From Myxococcota bacterium (GTDB taxonomy: Bacteria > Myxococcota_A > UBA9160 > UBA6930): a stretch of 35,147 bases of DNA. The notes under the pieces are model-generated. The model saw only the letters and a list, made by a program, of their open reading frames with translations. It did no database searches and had not been told where the DNA came from. Location of the stretch: NCBI GenBank assembly GCA_030065975.1, contig JASJCN010000040.1, positions 1 through 35,147 of the forward strand, given 5' to 3'. Positions 3 through 31,705 of this stretch are shown here, piece after piece (the stretch's first letter is position 1; each line of letters starts with the position of its first letter). Both the position numbers and the translations under genes were made by a program.

Positions 3-3000
3 CAGATCGAGGAGGGCCCCTTCGAGTTCGACGGCGAGGACGACGACGGGAGCGAGGCGCTCTTCTTCACCTCCCTGTGGAGCGAGTTCTCGAACGATCC
101 CGACGAGTGCGAGGCGGACATCCACTACCTGGGCGCCGTCCATCCCGACCTGCCGGGATGCGTCGACGGCGACCCCGACACGAGCTGCTTCAACGGCGTC
201 GCCTACCGGCCCTCCGACGACCTGCTCGTGCGCATGGAGCCCACCAACGACGGGCTCGCGTCCTTCAACGGGCCGCGCGGTGGCCGCACCCTGGCCCACG
301 AGCTGGGCCACAACTACGGCCGCAAGCACATCGACTGCGGCGGACCCGACGGGCCCCACGACGACCCGCCCTTCGACGACTGCGACTTCGGCGTGAACGT
401 TCCCGACTTCGAGGTCACCCACTTCGGCTTCGACCCCGTCACCCAGACGGTGATCAAGCCGGGCGATGCCGGCGAGCTGATGAGCTACTCCGGCGATCGC
501 TGGATCTCGAAGCACAACTGGGACCGGATCTGGAACGAGACGTCCACCGAGGGCGGGCTCTTCGCCTTCGGCGCCGGCGGCAACGCCGTGGGCCCCCACG
601 TCTACGTCTACGGCCGCGCCGACGCCATCAACGGCGAGGGAGAGCTGCTCCCCGCCTACGTGCTCCCCGACGGCAGCTACGACCGGGAGAAGGTGATGCG
701 CTCGATCGATGCGGCCGCCCTGATCCCGGCCACGAGCCCGTGGACCCTCGAGGTCCGCGACGGCTCGGGCGGCGTGCTGTTCGACACCATGGCGCTCGTC
801 TTCGAGTCCTCGGACGCCCCGGACAAGCCGGCTGGCTTTGCCCAGTACCTGCCCTTCCCGGCCGGCGCGCAGAGCGTGCACCTGCTCTTCCAGGGCACCT
901 CGGTCGCGAGCCAGACGGCGTCGAACTCGCCGCCCCAGCTGGCCCTCGACCCCCTCTCCCTCGACGTGCTGGCCCAGCAGCTGCAGGTCTCGTGGACCGC
1001 ATCGGACGCCGACGGCGACACCCTGCGCTTCACGATCCACTACAGCGACGACGACGGGGTGAGCTGGAAGCTCCTGCGCCTCAACTACGGCGCGCTCTCG
1101 GCCACCCTCGACACCTCGCTGCTGGCCGGGAGCACGAGCGCCCGGGTGCGCGTGCTGGCGAGCGACGGGCTCAACACCACCGAGGCGATCAGCCCGCCCT
1201 TCATCCTGCCCACCCACGTGCCGACGGTCATGATCGGCGGCGTGATGGACGGCCAGGAGCTGCCCTTCGGCTCCGACGTGCAGCTGCTCGGCATCGGAGT
1301 GGATGCCGAGGACGGAAGCCTGCCGGGCTCCTCGCTCGACTGGAACGTCCTCGGACCGCCGGACTTCAGCGGAACCGGGAGCGACCTCACGCTTCCGGAC
1401 CTGATCCCCGGCCCCTACTCCGTGGACCTGATCGGCACGGACTCCGACGGCGATACGGGCAGCGCCATGCTCGACTTCTCGGTGGCTCCGGTCCTGATCC
1501 CCGATACGGGGGCTCCGAACCTCGACGGGTTCTGCGGGGACGGGGCCTACCGGCAGGCCTCTGCGATCCGCATGCCCTTCGGCGCCGGCGGGAACGCCAC
1601 CGCGCGGCTGGTCCACGCGGGCACCGACCTCTACGTGTGCGTCACCGATCTCGCCCTGCCCTTCCTGCCCTTCTTCCCCGCCTCCTTCAGCCTGCGGGTG
1701 GAGGTGGACGGACAGGGAGACACCAACCCGGAGACGGGCGACCGCGGCTTCCGCGTCGACAGCGACGGCGACCCCTTCCAGGAGCTCGTCGGCCGCAGCG
1801 GCGGCTTCGCCGTGACCCAGTCGCCGTCCTCCGGCTACGCGGCTCGCATCAAGAGCGGCGCCGAGTCCTGGTCGGCCGAGATGCGGATCGACGAGGGACT
1901 CCTCGGTGGCTGGGACGGGCTCGTGCGCATGAGCTTCCGCCACGGGAACGCGCTGTGGCCGCCGGCCCACGACGCGGACTCGCCGGCAACCTATGGCATG
2001 GTGCAGCTCGGTGACACGGCTCCGCCGCTTCCGAACCTGGCTCCGGTGGCCGTGACCGGCCCGGACTTCGCCGTCGACCTGGTGGACGCCGGCGAGGTGC
2101 ACCTGGACGGAACGAACAGCTTCGACGCCGACGGTGACCCGCTGGGCTTCAGCTGGAGCCAGACGGGAGGCCCGCCCGTCACCCTGGTCGATGCGGACAC
2201 GGCGACGCCGGAGTTCGCCCTGCTCCCGAGCAGCCCGGCCGGCGTGTACCGCTTCGAGCTGATCGTGGACGACGGGTCGCTCCCGAGCCTCCCGGCCATC
2301 CAGCAGGTGACGGTCAACCGGGCCGACCCGGCGCCCCAGAGCTCGCCCGACCTGCCCCAGCTCCCGGACTTCGTGACCGTGGGAGACCCGGGCAACGACG
2401 AGCATCCGGACTTCCGCTTCGGTGCGGTCGCCGAGGCCTTCCAGGCGCGCACCACGGAGGTGACCAACGCCGAGTACATGATGTTCCTCCAGGCAGTCGC
2501 GCGCAGCGACCCGGCGGGACTCTGGGACCCGGCGATGGGAAGCGACCCGCGCGGCGGCATCACCCGCAGCGGCGTGGACGGATCCTTCGTCTACGCGATC
2601 CGGCCGCTGATGATGTTCAAGCCGGTCAACTTCGTGGACTGGTCCGACGCGGCCCGCTACGTGAACTGGCTCGAGAACGGCTCGCCGACGGCGCCCCAGG
2701 GTCCGACCACGACCGAGGACGGCGTCTACGACATGAGCCAGTCGACTCCCTCGCGTGCGCCGGGCAGCAACTACCGGCTGCCGACCGAGGACGAGTGGTT
2801 CAAGGCGGCCTTCCAGGATCCGGGAGCGCCCGGCGGCTGGCGCCAGTTCGCCGTCGACGCCTCCTCGGTCCCGACCCCGGCGAGCGTGGACGGCTCGGGC
2901 AACGTCTCCAACTCGAACCCCGACGTCGCCAACTACGGCAACTTCGCGGATTGGAACGCCCTCGACGGCCACTTCACCACGGTGGGGACGACGCTCGCAC

Positions 3001-3554
3001 CGAGCTTCTGGGGCACCTACGACCAGTCGGGCAACGTGTCCGAGTGGACCGAGAGCGAGAGCCGACGCCGCGGGCGCCGGGTCGTCCGGGGAGGCAGCTT
3101 CTCCTCGAGCGACTTCCTGATCTCGATCGAAGGACGCAGCGAGCGTCCGGACTCCGACTCGCGTGCGGACCTCGGCTTCCGGGTCTTCCGGAGCGACACG
3201 ACGCCGCCCCCGGACTCGGACGGCGACGGCATCCCCGACACCGCCGACAACTGCACCGACGTCCCCAACCCGGGTCAGGCCGACGCCAACGCCGGCCAGG
3301 ACGACGACTCGAGCCTCCCGGGAATCCAGCACTACGGGAACGCCTGCGATCCCGACTTCGACGACGATGGATTGGTCACGCCCAGCGACTTCTTCGCCGG
3401 GTTCCGCCCCTGCATCGGAGTCGACCCGGCCAGCGATCCGGTGTGCGCCGGCGCCGACTTCGACGGCGACGGCGTGGTGGGAGCCGCCGACTTCTTCGGC
3501 ACCTTCCGCCCGCGCATCGGCGGAGCGCCCGGGCCCGGCGTGGGCTCGCCCTGA
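3..3554 (+). CDS. Secreted metzincin metalloprotease with PKD-like, FGE-sulfatase-like and Ca-binding C-terminal repeats (5' partial)
   Basis: The reading frame is open to the left edge, so the N-terminus and any signal peptide are missing. The metzincin zinc site HELGHNYGRKH (HExxHxxGxxH) lies at about 297-329, and a Met-turn candidate ELMSYSGDRW at about 475-504, so this is very likely an active zinc endopeptidase. Two fibronectin/PKD-like beta domains follow (about 930-1490), then a CBM9/DOMON-like region (about 1500-2020), a PKD-like domain (about 2030-2325) and an FGE-sulfatase (SUMF1-like) domain (about 2370-3200; motifs TEVTNAEYMMFLQ, YRLPTEDEWFKAAF, GNVSEWTES, RRVVRGGSF). The chain ends with a thrombospondin type-3 repeat (DSDGDGIPDTADNC) and two dockerin-like Ca loops (DFDDDGLVTPSDF, DFDGDGVVGAADFF). 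The FGE-like domain ends GFRVFR without the Cys of true formylglycine-generating enzymes, so it is more likely a binding or structural module. Extracellular or surface location is inferred from the domains. No sorting tail is visible at the C-terminus. Confidence 0.85.
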   Translation, partial: QIEEGPFEFDGEDDDGSEALFFTSLWSEFSNDPDECEADIHYLGAVHPDLPGCVDGDPDTSCFNGVAYRPSDDLLVRMEPTNDGLASFNGPRGGRTLAHELGHNYGRKHIDCGGPDGPHDDPPFDDCDFGVNVPDFEVTHFGFDPVTQTVIKPGDAGELMSYSGDRWISKHNWDRIWNETSTEGGLFAFGAGGNAVGPHVYVYGRADAINGEGELLPAYVLPDGSYDREKVMRSIDAAALIPATSPWTLEVRDGSGGVLFDTMALVFESSDAPDKPAGFAQYLPFPAGAQSVHLLFQGTSVASQTASNSPPQLALDPLSLDVLAQQLQVSWTASDADGDTLRFTIHYSDDDGVSWKLLRLNYGALSATLDTSLLAGSTSARVRVLASDGLNTTEAISPPFILPTHVPTVMIGGVMDGQELPFGSDVQLLGIGVDAEDGSLPGSSLDWNVLGPPDFSGTGSDLTLPDLIPGPYSVDLIGTDSDGDTGSAMLDFSVAPVLIPDTGAPNLDGFCGDGAYRQASAIRMPFGAGGNATARLVHAGTDLYVCVTDLALPFLPFFPASFSLRVEVDGQGDTNPETGDRGFRVDSDGDPFQELVGRSGGFAVTQSPSSGYAARIKSGAESWSAEMRIDEGLLGGWDGLVRMSFRHGNALWPPAHDADSPATYGMVQLGDTAPPLPNLAPVAVTGPDFAVDLVDAGEVHLDGTNSFDADGDPLGFSWSQTGGPPVTLVDADTATPEFALLPSSPAGVYRFELIVDDGSLPSLPAIQQVTVNRADPAPQSSPDLPQLPDFVTVGDPGNDEHPDFRFGAVAEAFQARTTEVTNAEYMMFLQAVARSDPAGLWDPAMGSDPRGGITRSGVDGSFVYAIRPLMMFKPVNFVDWSDAARYVNWLENGSPTAPQGPTTTEDGVYDMSQSTPSRAPGSNYRLPTEDEWFKAAFQDPGAPGGWRQFAVDASSVPTPASVDGSGNVSNSNPDVANYGNFADWNALDGHFTTVGTTLAPSFWGTYDQSGNVSEWTESESRRRGRRVVRGGSFSSSDFLISIEGRSERPDSDSRADLGFRVFRSDTTPPPDSDGDGIPDTADNCTDVPNPGQADANAGQDDDSSLPGIQHYGNACDPDFDDDGLVTPSDFFAGFRPCIGVDPASDPVCAGADFDGDGVVGAADFFGTFRPRIGGAPGPGVGSP

Positions 3555-3574
3555 GCCTCCCCCCGCCAGGGAAG

Positions 3575-3610
3575 GGCCGGCCTCTCGCTATGCGGGGGGC
3601 CGGCCTCTTT
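3575..3610 (+). terminator. Hairpin with short T-rich tail after the metalloprotease gene
   Basis: Two copies of the self-complementary octamer GGCCGGCC (3575-3582 and 3598-3605) can pair across a 15-base loop and are followed by TCTTT. The hairpin begins 21 bases after the stop codon and overlaps the 3' end of the convergent ATPase gene. It is a plausible intrinsic terminator for the plus-strand gene, but the T tract is short. Confidence 0.45.
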
Positions 3611-4370
3611 GCGTCTCGGCGTCGAGGCTCCGCCCACCGGCCATCGCTCGCTGCAGCCCTTCGCGCGTGGCCTCGGAGGCCACGACGGAAAGGACGCTCC
3701 TTCCTCGCTCGAGCACGGTGAAGCGGTCCCCCACCGCGAGCGCGTGCTCGACGTTGTGCGTGATGAGCACGACCCCGACGCCCTGGTCGCGCGCCGTCCG
3801 GACGTTGCGCAGCACTCCGGCCGACTGGGCCACGCCGAGCGCGGAGGTCGGCTCGTCGAGGATGAGCACGCGCGCCCCGTGATGCAGCGCCCGCGCGATG
3901 GCGACGCACTGTCGCTGCCCGCCGGAGAGCGTCGAGACCGCCCGATCCACGTCGGACACCTCGATGGACATCCGGTCCAGCGCCTCGCGCGCGAGCCGGC
4001 CCGCGGCGGCCGCGTCGAAGACCGCGAAGGGTCCGAACCGCCGGACGGGCTCGCGGCCGAGCACGAAGTTCCGCGCCACGCTCATCAGCGGCACCAGGGC
4101 CAGGTCCTGATAGACCGTCGCGATGCCGTGATCCCGGGCCTCGCGCGGCGAGGCGAGCTGCAGCGGCTCCCCGTCCATGAAGAGGTCACCGCCGGTCGGC
4201 TCGAGGGCGCCGGAGAGGATCTGGATCAGCGTCGACTTGCCCGCCCCGTTGTCGCCGAGCAGGCAGTGGACCTCGCCGGCGTGCACCGCGAAGGAGACGT
4301 GGTCGAGCGCCATTCCCGAGTCGAAGCGTCGGGACACGCCCTTCGCGGAGAGACACGGCGGGGCGCTCAT
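3588..4370 (-). CDS. Sugar-type ABC importer ATP-binding protein (FrcA-like, single nucleotide-binding domain)
   Basis: This 260-residue ATPase should drive uptake through the permease encoded just upstream. It has Walker A GDNGAGKST, a Q-loop in ATVYQDLAL, signature LSGGQRQ, Walker B VLILDEPTSALG and a switch His in VLITHNVEHAL. It has one nucleotide-binding domain, like FrcA of fructose/ribose-type importers, whereas RbsA/XylG proteins have two fused domains and about 500 residues. The start ATG overlaps the permease stop as ATGA, a sign of translational coupling. The longer open frame reaching to 6341 is out-of-frame shadow of the permease and binding-protein genes. Substrate cannot be told from the sequence. 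Cytoplasmic face of the inner membrane. Confidence 0.9.
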   Translation of the reverse strand: MSAPPCLSAKGVSRRFDSGMALDHVSFAVHAGEVHCLLGDNGAGKSTLIQILSGALEPTGGDLFMDGEPLQLASPREARDHGIATVYQDLALVPLMSVARNFVLGREPVRRFGPFAVFDAAAAGRLAREALDRMSIEVSDVDRAVSTLSGGQRQCVAIARALHHGARVLILDEPTSALGVAQSAGVLRNVRTARDQGVGVVLITHNVEHALAVGDRFTVLERGRSVLSVVASEATREGLQRAMAGGRSLDAETQRGRPPA

Positions 4371-5416
4371 GCCAGGGCTCGTCCGCGTACGAAGCGGTTG
4401 AACCCGACGGCACCGAGCAGCATGGCGCCCAGGAAGACCTGGAACCAGTCCGAGTCGACGCCCGTGTAGAAGAGCCCCATCTGCACGGTGCCGAAGAGCA
4501 GGGCACCGAGCCCGGCTCCGAGGATCGAGCCGTGCCCGCCGCTCAACAGGCAGCCGCCGATCACCGCCGCGGTGATGGCCTCGAACTCCTTCTGCAGCCC
4601 GCGATTGGTGTCGGCCGAGCCGGCGTCGAGCACCTGGAGCGTCGCCACGAGCGCGGCCGACGCCGCGGTCGCGACGAAGAGCGCGATCTTGACCCGGTCC
4701 ACCGGGACCCCGCAGCGGAGCGCGGCGCGCGCGTCCCCGCCCGCCGCCAGCACCCAGTTGCCGAAGCGGGTCCGGAAGAGCACGAAGGCGCCGAGCGCGA
4801 CCGCGGCCACCCACCACAGGATCGAGACCGGAAGGCCCGTCACCGCCGGCGCCCCGTCCACCCGGGTGGCCATCCAGCCCGCATCCGCCAGCGCCGAGAA
4901 GAGCGGCTCGGCCACCTCTCCCGAGAAGAGCGGCGCGACGCTGGCAGTTGCGAGGGGCTCCTTCAGCCCGCCGATCTGGGTGCGCCCCGTCGCCCATCGC
5001 GTCACGCCGAGCGCGAGCCCACGTAGCACGAAGAGGGAGGCGAGGGTCACGATGAAGGAAGGGAGCCCGCTGCGGACGACCACGATGCCGTTGAGACCCC
5101 CCCAGGCCGCGGCGAAGGCGAAGCCCAGGGCGATGGAGGGGCCGAGCGGCCAGCCCCACTCCATCGCGGGGATGGCGATCGCGATGGAGACGGCCCCGAC
5201 CATCGAGCCGACCGAGAGATCGAACTCGCCGCCGATCATCAAGAGCGCCACGGGCGCCGCCAGGATCCCGAGCAGGGCCGAGACCTCGAGGAAGTTCACG
5301 ATGCCCCGCGCGCTCCACATCCCCGAGTCGGCGGCGAAGATCGCGAAGAAGGCGAAGACCAGCGCGCACCCGGCGGCGGCTCCGAAGGCCGGCGTCGCCA
5401 CCCAGCGCCGCCCCAT
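4367..5416 (-). CDS. Sugar-type ABC importer permease (RbsC/FrcC-like)
   Basis: A 349-residue, very hydrophobic inner-membrane protein with about eight to ten predicted membrane segments, of the BPD_transp_2 family (ribose, xylose and fructose importers). Family landmarks are the MIGGEFDLSVGSMVG segment, where the usual pattern is GGIDLSVGS, the GLPSFIVTLASLFVLRGLAL region that carries the GxxPFIVTLG-type motif, and the AAVIGGCLLSGGHGSILGAG region near the end. It sits between the binding protein (3-base gap upstream) and the ATPase (4-base overlap downstream), which completes an importer. A long loop at about residues 145-185 (ATGRTQIGGL onwards) lies before a membrane segment and is likely periplasmic. 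Start ATG at 5416. Confidence 0.9.
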   Translation of the reverse strand: MGRRWVATPAFGAAAGCALVFAFFAIFAADSGMWSARGIVNFLEVSALLGILAAPVALLMIGGEFDLSVGSMVGAVSIAIAIPAMEWGWPLGPSIALGFAFAAAWGGLNGIVVVRSGLPSFIVTLASLFVLRGLALGVTRWATGRTQIGGLKEPLATASVAPLFSGEVAEPLFSALADAGWMATRVDGAPAVTGLPVSILWWVAAVALGAFVLFRTRFGNWVLAAGGDARAALRCGVPVDRVKIALFVATAASAALVATLQVLDAGSADTNRGLQKEFEAITAAVIGGCLLSGGHGSILGAGLGALLFGTVQMGLFYTGVDSDWFQVFLGAMLLGAVGFNRFVRGRALA

Positions 5417-7841: not shown

Positions 7842-9578
<1,737 letters not shown>

Positions 9579-26165: not shown

Positions 26166-27086
26166 TCAGACGATCGTGAGCCAGCGCGCGTACTTCTCGC
26201 TTCGCCCCTTCACGGCGTCGAAGAACGCGGTCTGGAGGGTCTTGGCAATCGGCCCGCGGCGCCCCTCGCCGATCTTCCGGTGATCGATCTCGCGGATGGG
26301 CGTGACCTCGGCGGCGGTTCCGGTGAGGAAGACCTCGTCGGAGGTGTACAGCTCGTCCCTGGTGATCGCGGCCTCCTGGAAGGGAATGCCCTGGTCCCGG
26401 GCGAGCTCGATCACGGAGGCGCGGGTGATGCCGTCGAGGACGGTCTGCAGCGGCGGCGTTCGCAGCACGCCGTCGCGGACCATGAACAGGTTCTCACCGC
26501 TGGCCTCGGAGACGAGCCCCTGGGTGTCCAGCAGGATCGCCTCGTCGTAGCCGTCGAGCAGCGCCTCGCGCTTGGCGAGGATCGAGTTGACGTAGTCGCC
26601 GCACGTCTTGCCCTTGGTCATCTTGGCGTTGACGTAGTGGCGCTGGAAGGTCGAGACCTTGGCGCGGATCCCCTGCTCGAGACCCTCGTCCCCGAGGTAG
26701 GCGCCCCAGGGCCAGACGACGATCGCGAGACGGATGGGGTTGTCGGCCGGGTTCAGGCCCATCGCCCCTTCGCCCACGAAGGCCAGGGGGCGGATGTAGC
26801 CCTCGGCGAGCTGGTTGGCGCGCAAGGTCTCGAGGATCGCGTCCGAGACGGCGCTCGCCTCGAAGGGGATCTCCATCAGGTTGATGTGCGCCGACTCGTA
26901 GAGGCGTCGCACGTGCTCGGCCAGACGGAACACCGCGGAGCGGCCGTCGTCGGTCTGGTAGCAGCGGATGCCCTCGAAGACCCCGAGCCCGTAGTGCAGG
27001 GTGTGGGTCAGGATGTGGACGTGAGCGTCGTCCCAATCCACGAGCTGACCGTCGAGCCAGATCTTCTCGCCGGTGATTGCGGCCAT
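26166..27086 (-). CDS. ilvE: Branched-chain amino acid aminotransferase
   Basis: A 306-residue fold-type IV PLP transaminase that makes or breaks valine, leucine and isoleucine with glutamate and 2-oxoglutarate. Characteristic parts are LHYGLGVFEGIRCYQT, IRPLAFVGEGAMGLNP, the PLP lysine in TKGKTCGDYVNS, DEAILLDTQGLVSEASGENLF, LDGITRASVIELA and EVFLTGTAAEVTPIREID. Length and motifs match group I bacterial IlvE. It starts at ATG 27086. The gene lies 34 bases after the stop of the pseudo-receiver/J-domain protein on the same strand and may be read from the same transcript. No leader peptide or attenuator is visible in the gap. Confidence 0.95.
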   Translation of the reverse strand: MAAITGEKIWLDGQLVDWDDAHVHILTHTLHYGLGVFEGIRCYQTDDGRSAVFRLAEHVRRLYESAHINLMEIPFEASAVSDAILETLRANQLAEGYIRPLAFVGEGAMGLNPADNPIRLAIVVWPWGAYLGDEGLEQGIRAKVSTFQRHYVNAKMTKGKTCGDYVNSILAKREALLDGYDEAILLDTQGLVSEASGENLFMVRDGVLRTPPLQTVLDGITRASVIELARDQGIPFQEAAITRDELYTSDEVFLTGTAAEVTPIREIDHRKIGEGRRGPIAKTLQTAFFDAVKGRSEKYARWLTIV

Positions 27087-27120: not shown

Positions 27121-29040
27121 CTAGCGACGCAGGATCCGTCGCACCAGCCCCCGGGATTTCTCTCGCCGCATGTGGATCAGCCGCAGCTCGCGCAGCGCCT
27201 CGACGCAGTCGGGGTCGAGCTGGACCGCGCGGGTGAACATCTTCTCCGCCTGCTTCATGCGGTCGGCCGCCTTGTACAGGCGGCCCAGGAAGAGGTAGGG
27301 CTTCTCCCGATCCGGTGCCAGCTTGCGCGCCGCGTGGACGACCTTGATGGCCTCCTCCAGCTGCCCGGGTGCCTCGGGCGCACACAGCCAGTGCGTGAAG
27401 CCGAACCAGGCGCGGTACTCGCCCTCTTCGGGGTAGGCCTTCACGGCCTCCTCGAAGTGACCGTAAGCCTCGTCGTAGCGCCGCGCTCGAAGCGCCCCCT
27501 CGCCCTTCTGGAAGGCGACCTCCGCCTGGAGCGCCCGGTGCCCCTCCTCGAGCTCGGCGGCGTCGAGCTCGGCACTGCGCGCCTGGCTCGCCAGCCGGCG
27601 GCGGGAGTCCTCGTCGCGGATCGCGTCGTAGGCCTCGGCGATGCGTCCGAACACCTCCTCGGCCAGGCGTGCCACGGCGTCGCCCGCGCCGGCCAGCCGG
27701 TCGGGGTGGGTCCGCACGGCAAGCGCCGCGTAGGCCTTGCGGATGGTGTCGTCGTCGTCGCTCGTCTCGACGCACAGGATCTCGTAGGGCGTGGCGCCCT
27801 CGATGCGGCCGGCGTGGGCGGCCAGCTCGGCGCGCAGCTCCTCGATGTCGATGGGGCCCTCGGGCGTGGCCATCGTCTCGGGGGGCGTCTCGACCGGCGG
27901 CTTCGTCGTCTCGCGCTTGACCCGCCGCGCCTCGGTGGTGCGGAGCTCGACGAGCTGCAGCACGAGCAGGCCGTAGAGCAGACGACGCTCGGGCTCGGTC
28001 AGGGGGAGGATGTCCCCGAGACGATTCACGCCTTCGACCCGGTGCATCATCTCGCGCGTCTCGTCGTCGAGCTCGAGCTCCTGGAAGCGGTAGAAGGCGG
28101 TCTCGGCGGGCTGCGGATGGGCGTCCGCCTCGGCGGTCAGGAACTCGTCGACCACCTCGATGGGCGTTCGCAGCCGGACGCCGTCGAGTACGATCTCCGC
28201 GGTGCCGCGCTTGAGCGAGAGCGCGTTGCCGCTCTTGACCTTGGCACCGCGATGGAAGCGGAAGCGACCCTTCCGCCACGAGAAGGTCTCGAAGAGCTTC
28301 TCCTCGGCCTGGTTGTGCAGGGCGCGAGCGAGATCCTGCTCGTCGAGCATCTGCATCGCCATCAGGATGTTGCCCTGCAGCCCTTCGCCCTTGCGGACGC
28401 GGGTGAGCGACTCGTGCATCACGTCCCAGGTGATGGTCCCCGAGGCCGCGAGCAGGTGGCCGAGGGTCTCGTTCACGAGGTTGGAACGGATCACCGCGAC
28501 GCGGCCCTCCCGCAGCTGGATCTGCTTGCGCTTCTTGCCGCGCTTCAGGTCCAGGACGCCGGTGGCGCGCAGGCCGTGCAGGTGGTGCAGCAGGGCCGGA
28601 AAGGGAACCTCCTGCAGGTCGCCCTCGAGCATGGGCGTGCCCGACCGTCGCGGGCCCGGGGAGACCGGCACGGTTCCGACCTGCTTGCGCACCATGTCGA
28701 GCAGGCGGTCGAGCGGCACCGGCTTGCGCAGGATCGTCTCGGCGCCGAGCTCGCGAGCGCGCTCCTCGTAGGCCGGCGTGAGCGAGCAGCTCGAGAGCAG
28801 CACCACGGGAATGCGACCGCATTCGGGATCCTTGCGGATGTCGCCGAGCAGCGAGAAGCCGTCGAGGCCCGGAAGCAGGACCGAGAGCACCGCCAGATCC
28901 GGCTCGTGCTCCCGATGCAGCGCAAGGGCCGAGGGGCCGTCGTGGGCCATGACCACGTCGAATCCCTCCTCACCGAGCGTGCGAGCGAGGCTTCGGCAGA
29001 AGCGGGGATCGTCGTCCGCGCACAGGATCTTCGCGTTCAA
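27121..29040 (-). CDS. Pseudo-receiver + DUF4388 (PatA-like) + J-domain + TPR protein
   Basis: About 639 residues. Residues 1-125 form a CheY-like receiver with the acidic triplet DDD at 9-11 and a Lys in ILRKPVP, but the phosphoacceptor position is Ser53 (AVLSVLLPG; Asp normal), so it cannot be phosphorylated in the usual way. Then comes a DUF4388/PatA-like domain (MLEGDLQEVPFPALLHHLHG to about residue 270). A DnaJ J-domain (TPYEILCVETSDDDDTIRKA and RTHPDRLAG, with the HPD tripeptide) is at about 420-485. A TPR region follows (RRYDEAYGHFEEAVKAYPEE, REKPYLFLGRLYKAADRMKQ). The J-domain implies Hsp70 partnering. TTG 29040 with TTGGAGGG seven bases upstream is preferred over GTG 29058. Upstream 29041-29177 is 137 bases with no clear promoter. 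Confidence 0.88.
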   Translation of the reverse strand: MNAKILCADDDPRFCRSLARTLGEEGFDVVMAHDGPSALALHREHEPDLAVLSVLLPGLDGFSLLGDIRKDPECGRIPVVLLSSCSLTPAYEERARELGAETILRKPVPLDRLLDMVRKQVGTVPVSPGPRRSGTPMLEGDLQEVPFPALLHHLHGLRATGVLDLKRGKKRKQIQLREGRVAVIRSNLVNETLGHLLAASGTITWDVMHESLTRVRKGEGLQGNILMAMQMLDEQDLARALHNQAEEKLFETFSWRKGRFRFHRGAKVKSGNALSLKRGTAEIVLDGVRLRTPIEVVDEFLTAEADAHPQPAETAFYRFQELELDDETREMMHRVEGVNRLGDILPLTEPERRLLYGLLVLQLVELRTTEARRVKRETTKPPVETPPETMATPEGPIDIEELRAELAAHAGRIEGATPYEILCVETSDDDDTIRKAYAALAVRTHPDRLAGAGDAVARLAEEVFGRIAEAYDAIRDEDSRRRLASQARSAELDAAELEEGHRALQAEVAFQKGEGALRARRYDEAYGHFEEAVKAYPEEGEYRAWFGFTHWLCAPEAPGQLEEAIKVVHAARKLAPDREKPYLFLGRLYKAADRMKQAEKMFTRAVQLDPDCVEALRELRLIHMRREKSRGLVRRILRR

Positions 29041-29177
29041 CTGGGGCCCTCCAACCACGCCTTATCGACACGACGGGGCCCCGAGCTTGACGCCCGGTTG
29101 CGTCGACTCGCGCGCAACCGCACCCGACCGGCAAGCCCTGTGCAGCGGGCTGGCAGCGGGGCAGCAGCCTGCGGGAG

Positions 29178-31701
<2,524 letters not shown>

Positions 31702-31705
<4 letters not shown>

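Follow-up and report, generated by a model that had tools for sequence, protein, structure and literature searches.

Receivers that lack the phosphoacceptor aspartate make up about 4% of receivers, and Ser is the third commonest replacement at that position (PMC4395418, PMC12632262). A Gly or Ala at the T+1 position is less common in such pseudo-receivers, and it is still an open question what switches them in the absence of phosphate (PMC12632262). In Myxococcus xanthus, the pseudo-receiver of FrzS binds the TPR protein SgmX (PMC11580455). Among the cyanobacterial PATAN response regulators, the PATAN domain binds the pilus motor PilB in Synechocystis (PMC10519157, PMC7690835). In Nostoc punctiforme, a J-protein and an Hsp70, DnaJ3 and DnaK1, are tied to type IV pilus activity, and DnaK1 interacts with PilB (PMC9239167).

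Here, we analyzed a gene in a 35,147-nucleotide stretch of DNA from a Myxococcota bacterium (contig JASJCN010000040.1; this whole stretch is called the window), which codes for a receiver, a DUF4388 domain, a J-domain, and TPRs. Like the aspartate-less receivers, the receiver of this protein matches PF00072 without having the phosphoacceptor, carries Ser in its place, and has neither Gly nor Ala at T+1 (PMC4395418, PMC12632262). It differs from them in that the other four residues of the pocket quintet are kept, the loss is limited to one lineage of an Asp-bearing family, and the output consists of DUF4388, a J-domain, and TPRs. The pairing of a pseudo-receiver with TPRs is shared with FrzS–SgmX; however, these are two proteins, FrzS having a coiled coil, whereas the window protein holds the receiver and the TPRs on one chain, and no DUF4388 or J-domain is described in that system (PMC11580455). 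Likewise, no receiver is described on DnaJ3 in the part of the Nostoc report that was available (PMC9239167).

The window protein also resembles the class C J-proteins with TPRs, as it combines an HPD-bearing J-domain with TPRs, and no zinc-finger or C-terminal DnaJ domain was matched in it by Pfam up to an E of 0.1. Unlike those proteins, it carries an N-terminal receiver and a DUF4388 domain. We take DUF4388 to be the same domain as PATAN (PatA-N); DUF4388 also matches in Synechococcus elongatus. The window protein would then join a receiver to a PatA-N-type domain, as do PatA, PixG, PixE, and LsiR. In PatA and PixG, the PATAN domain is N-terminal to the receiver, whereas the window receiver (residues 5-118) precedes DUF4388 (residues 139-290). 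Unlike the PATAN regulators, the window protein adds a J-domain and TPRs. In the open-licence papers searched, we found no description of the combination of receiver, DUF4388, J-domain, and TPRs.

Results

The gene lies on the minus strand at 27121..29040 (639 aa, stop included in the coordinates) and begins with a TTG codon at 29040, from which all residues are numbered. The open frame around it (27121..29058) runs for 645 codons without interruption, and a Shine-Dalgarno-like GGAGG, read from the sequence, lies ahead of the TTG (29048..29052, minus strand). All four module types scored above their Pfam cut-offs. The receiver (28687..29028; PF00072, 3e-19), which was also modeled with AlphaFold2, reached 69.7 bits against a cut-off of 30.2. 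It is followed by DUF4388 (28171..28626; Pfam, 4.6e-20), by the J-domain (residues 418-481, 27598..27789; Pfam DnaJ, 6.7e-12) with an HPD motif that is intact in the alignment (residues 445-447, 27700..27708), and by the Pfam-matched TPR repeats (residues 506-619, 27184..27525), all on the minus strand. None of the 25 best NCBIfam matches of the protein rose above its family cut-off, and the 60 best rows of a profile search against solved structures held receiver and TPR matches only, with no DUF4388 structure.

The pocket quintet of the window receiver consists of Asp9, Asp10, Ser53, Ser83, and Lys106. The alignment shows the metal-binding acidic pair Asp9-Asp10 (29011..29016) and the conserved lysine (28723..28725) to be intact, and the receiver also keeps its DGF and KPV motifs. 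Ser53 (codon TCG, 28882..28884) occupies the phosphoacceptor column. Ser83, at the conserved T/S position, adjoins Ser84 at T+1 (28789..28794; all features on the minus strand), where the 15 canonical relatives compared have Gly84. This change from Gly to Ser had gone unmentioned in a preliminary description of the locus, which had otherwise read Asp9/10/11, Ser53, the pocket lysine, and the HPD motif just as we do.

AlphaFold2 was run on the receiver alone, together with 38 receivers of related loci. The model of the window receiver has a mean pLDDT of 92.7; its strands and helices alternate as in receivers, and the third strand ends at Ser53. The domain is predicted to be folded. A PF00072 match, a missing Asp, and a receiver-like predicted fold place it among the aspartate-less receivers.

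Is the four-module protein peculiar to this genome? A protein search gave strong matches in 73 of 192 related genomes. The taxonomic order comprises 80 of the genomes, and a profile search of these gave matches in 60, with E values no worse than 1e-60. We aligned 69 homologues with the window protein and dropped six paralogous, distant, or broken rows, which left 64 rows including the window. Beside 58 of the 69 homologues lies at least one of ilvE, mtnA, and gatB, with ilvE on one side and mtnA or gatB on the other. Neighbour tests gave the same picture for the window, in which an ilvE-like gene for a class IV aminotransferase is the conserved downstream neighbour (26166..27086) and an mtnA-like gene the conserved upstream one (29178..30242), the name mtnA being our own reading of the sequence. 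The gatB gene, found farther upstream in many relatives, spans 30239..31705 with an approximate 5' end; all three genes are on the minus strand. The mtnA-X-ilvE block recurs in a second family (f12), which is related only at the class level. This shared block indicates that the gene is old and mostly vertically inherited. The module order given in the preliminary description recurs across the taxonomic order; it is not due to chance and is no peculiarity of the window genome.

A J-domain with HPD is present in 59 of the 64 orthologue rows. Pfam found no J-domain in two proteins with a canonical receiver pocket (L062, L059). Two syntenic proteins of genus g38 (L063, L065) keep DUF4388 and the TPRs but have lost the HPD, and Pfam no longer recognises their receiver. 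These four cases suggest that Hsp70 recruitment is not essential everywhere. Among the proteins checked, the constant part is DUF4388 with the TPRs. Two genomes carry second, non-syntenic copies (L061, L064), in which the phosphoacceptor column holds Glu and the HPD is missing.

Column 53 holds Asp in 61 of the 64 orthologue rows and Ser in the other three (the window, L063, and L065). The window's genus is represented by one other genome, which has Asp53, encoded by GAC; the two genomes are sisters (SH-aLRT 98) in a tree from which the receiver columns were left out. Ser53, seen in the single genome that represents the species, therefore originated on the branch leading to the window and is private to that lineage. 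A conserved Ser53-bearing clade was sought among the 64 rows and not found, and a canonical receiver is the most likely ancestral state. The preliminary description had singled out the four-module order with a dead receiver for comparison and had proposed a search for this order, with a check for Asp or Ser, in related genomes. The architecture does recur, but with Asp nearly throughout, the other genome of the genus included, and a complete canonical quintet is frequent. Ser is, by that very check, a lineage-specific change and not a conserved feature of the family.

Keeping the tree fixed, we then refitted its branch lengths separately for each domain. The receiver end branch was about three times longer in the window than in the sister (0.652 vs. 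0.201). The corresponding values were 0.167 and 0.119 for DUF4388 and 0.099 and 0.179 for the TPRs; these two parts of the window protein are not clearly faster than the sister's. The J-domain end branch was fast in both (window 0.681, sister 0.532). When compared with the consensus of nine same-family genomes, 15 receiver changes were window-only and 4 were sister-only (p = 0.019), relative-rate counts for the receiver against DUF4388 plus TPRs gave a Fisher p of 0.034, and counts with a single outgroup (18 changes in the window, 9 in the sister) were not significant (p = 0.12); a single sister genome underlies all of these tests, and their domain boundaries and conservation thresholds were of our choosing. 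Seven positions that are conserved in canonical relatives are altered in the window receiver, compared with 1-4 in the relatives, and two of the seven, D53S and G84S, lie in or adjoin the active site. The loss of Asp53, therefore, looks like a real relaxation of the receiver and not an error, the effect being consistent and its strength modest.

The window receiver is not alone in this respect. Some clades have a canonical five-residue pocket, and others a broken one: several lineages are affected in the acidic pair, some carry Cys in place of the Ser/Thr, and genus g35 (L046, L047, L049-L055) has lost the pocket Lys and, where readable, has its first acidic residue replaced, with Asp53 retained throughout. 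On the tree, the canonical/pseudo state changes at least six times, a count in which losses and regains are not distinguished. Asp53 is retained in most of the broken receivers, and the window is unusual in that Asp53 is lost while the other quintet residues are intact. The alignment and tree indicate that this loss is one of several independent receiver decays in the family. The preliminary description had allowed for a chance loss, and Ser53 is indeed lineage-specific; mere noise, however, does not fit a receiver that evolves faster in the window and pockets that are broken elsewhere.

Discussion

Could a receiver without its phosphoacceptor still serve the protein? We propose, with a probability of roughly 65%, that the window protein is an orphan response regulator acting through DUF4388 and Hsp70 recruitment, in which phosphorylation has become dispensable and the folded receiver is kept as a docking module. 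The family would consist of old orphan response regulators with DUF4388 (PatA-N-like), a class C J-domain, and TPRs as outputs. In the window species, the receiver has lost its phosphoacceptor (Asp53 to Ser) and undergone other changes, but its predicted fold is retained and the other modules are kept. It would work without Asp phosphorylation, either offering a docking surface or staying fixed in one state. Through the J-domain, DnaK would be recruited to the partners that DUF4388 and the TPRs bind. More tentatively, the client might be a type IV pilus or a related secretion motor, as for the cyanobacterial PATAN regulators.

No histidine kinase gene was found beside the window gene; the nearest one found in the window, a hybrid with a histidine kinase ATPase domain and a receiver (7842-9578, minus strand, from domain matches), is about 18 kb away. 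The preliminary description had concluded that a signalling scaffold recruits Hsp70. The intact HPD on the same chain fits this view, and the recruitment itself is what we infer from it. DnaK genes are present in the window's genome, which also has a second J-TPR protein directly upstream of DnaK, 31-33% identical over the matched stretches. At locus L236 (G000:C250, about 1900-4645), where the J-TPR protein is directly upstream of the DnaK/Hsp70 gene, we read the flanking translations as an ornithine carbamoyltransferase-like protein before them and an argininosuccinate synthase-like protein after them.

As for the pilus, PilT occurs in every genome carrying the gene and in 17 genomes without it among the 80 genomes of the order. 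The three PilT-less genomes are the three same-family genomes that have no copy of the gene, and they are small genomes from one family. PilM was matched in 80 of 80 genomes and is, therefore, uninformative. The association of the gene with the pilus is weak.

Alternatively, the window receiver might simply be decaying, with no remaining role and on its way to loss as in genus g38. The accelerated receiver branch and the seven changes at conserved positions support such a decay, and the two g38 receivers are already invisible to Pfam. On the other hand, the frame is open, the receiver retains the acidic pair, Ser83, Lys106, and both motifs (DGF and KPV), and its fold is predicted with confidence. 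We consider it unlikely that the domain has no role left.

Might Ser53 instead be a new input, through which a Ser/Thr kinase switches the receiver in place of Asp phosphorylation? The frequency of Ser among the substitutions in aspartate-less receivers is in keeping with this, and the authors who report it raise the Ser/Thr kinase idea (PMC4395418); furthermore, the atypical response regulator GlnR undergoes Ser/Thr phosphorylation at several of its residues (PMC12632262). However, Ser53 is private to one lineage, no clade with a well-kept receiver conserves Ser, the two other Ser cases (L063, L065) sit in a fully decayed receiver, and the rate tests point to relaxation of the window receiver, not preservation. 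We regard the sensing of a new input through such a Ser/Thr switch as highly improbable. A sequencing or assembly error is scarcely credible even in a draft assembly (369 contigs, 85.5% complete) because TCG differs at all three bases from the GAC or GAT of the homologues, the 645-codon frame is intact, and other changes are scattered along the receiver, in line with the earlier judgment that a sequencing slip is unlikely.

If the protein is indeed an orphan response regulator that keeps its folded receiver for docking, a two-component domain would be linked to Hsp70 recruitment on one chain, an arrangement for which we found no description in the open-licence papers searched. It is possible, though doubtful, that the gene represents an undescribed response-regulator family with Hsp70 recruitment as its output and, at the same time, a natural series: a syntenic gene whose receivers repeatedly, and through changes at different residues, became independent of phosphorylation, with DUF4388, the J-domain, and the TPRs mostly kept. 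Intact, partly broken, and almost erased receivers are found in related genomes in one orthologous gene anchored by synteny; therefore, the loss of the receiver can be followed step by step in this family.
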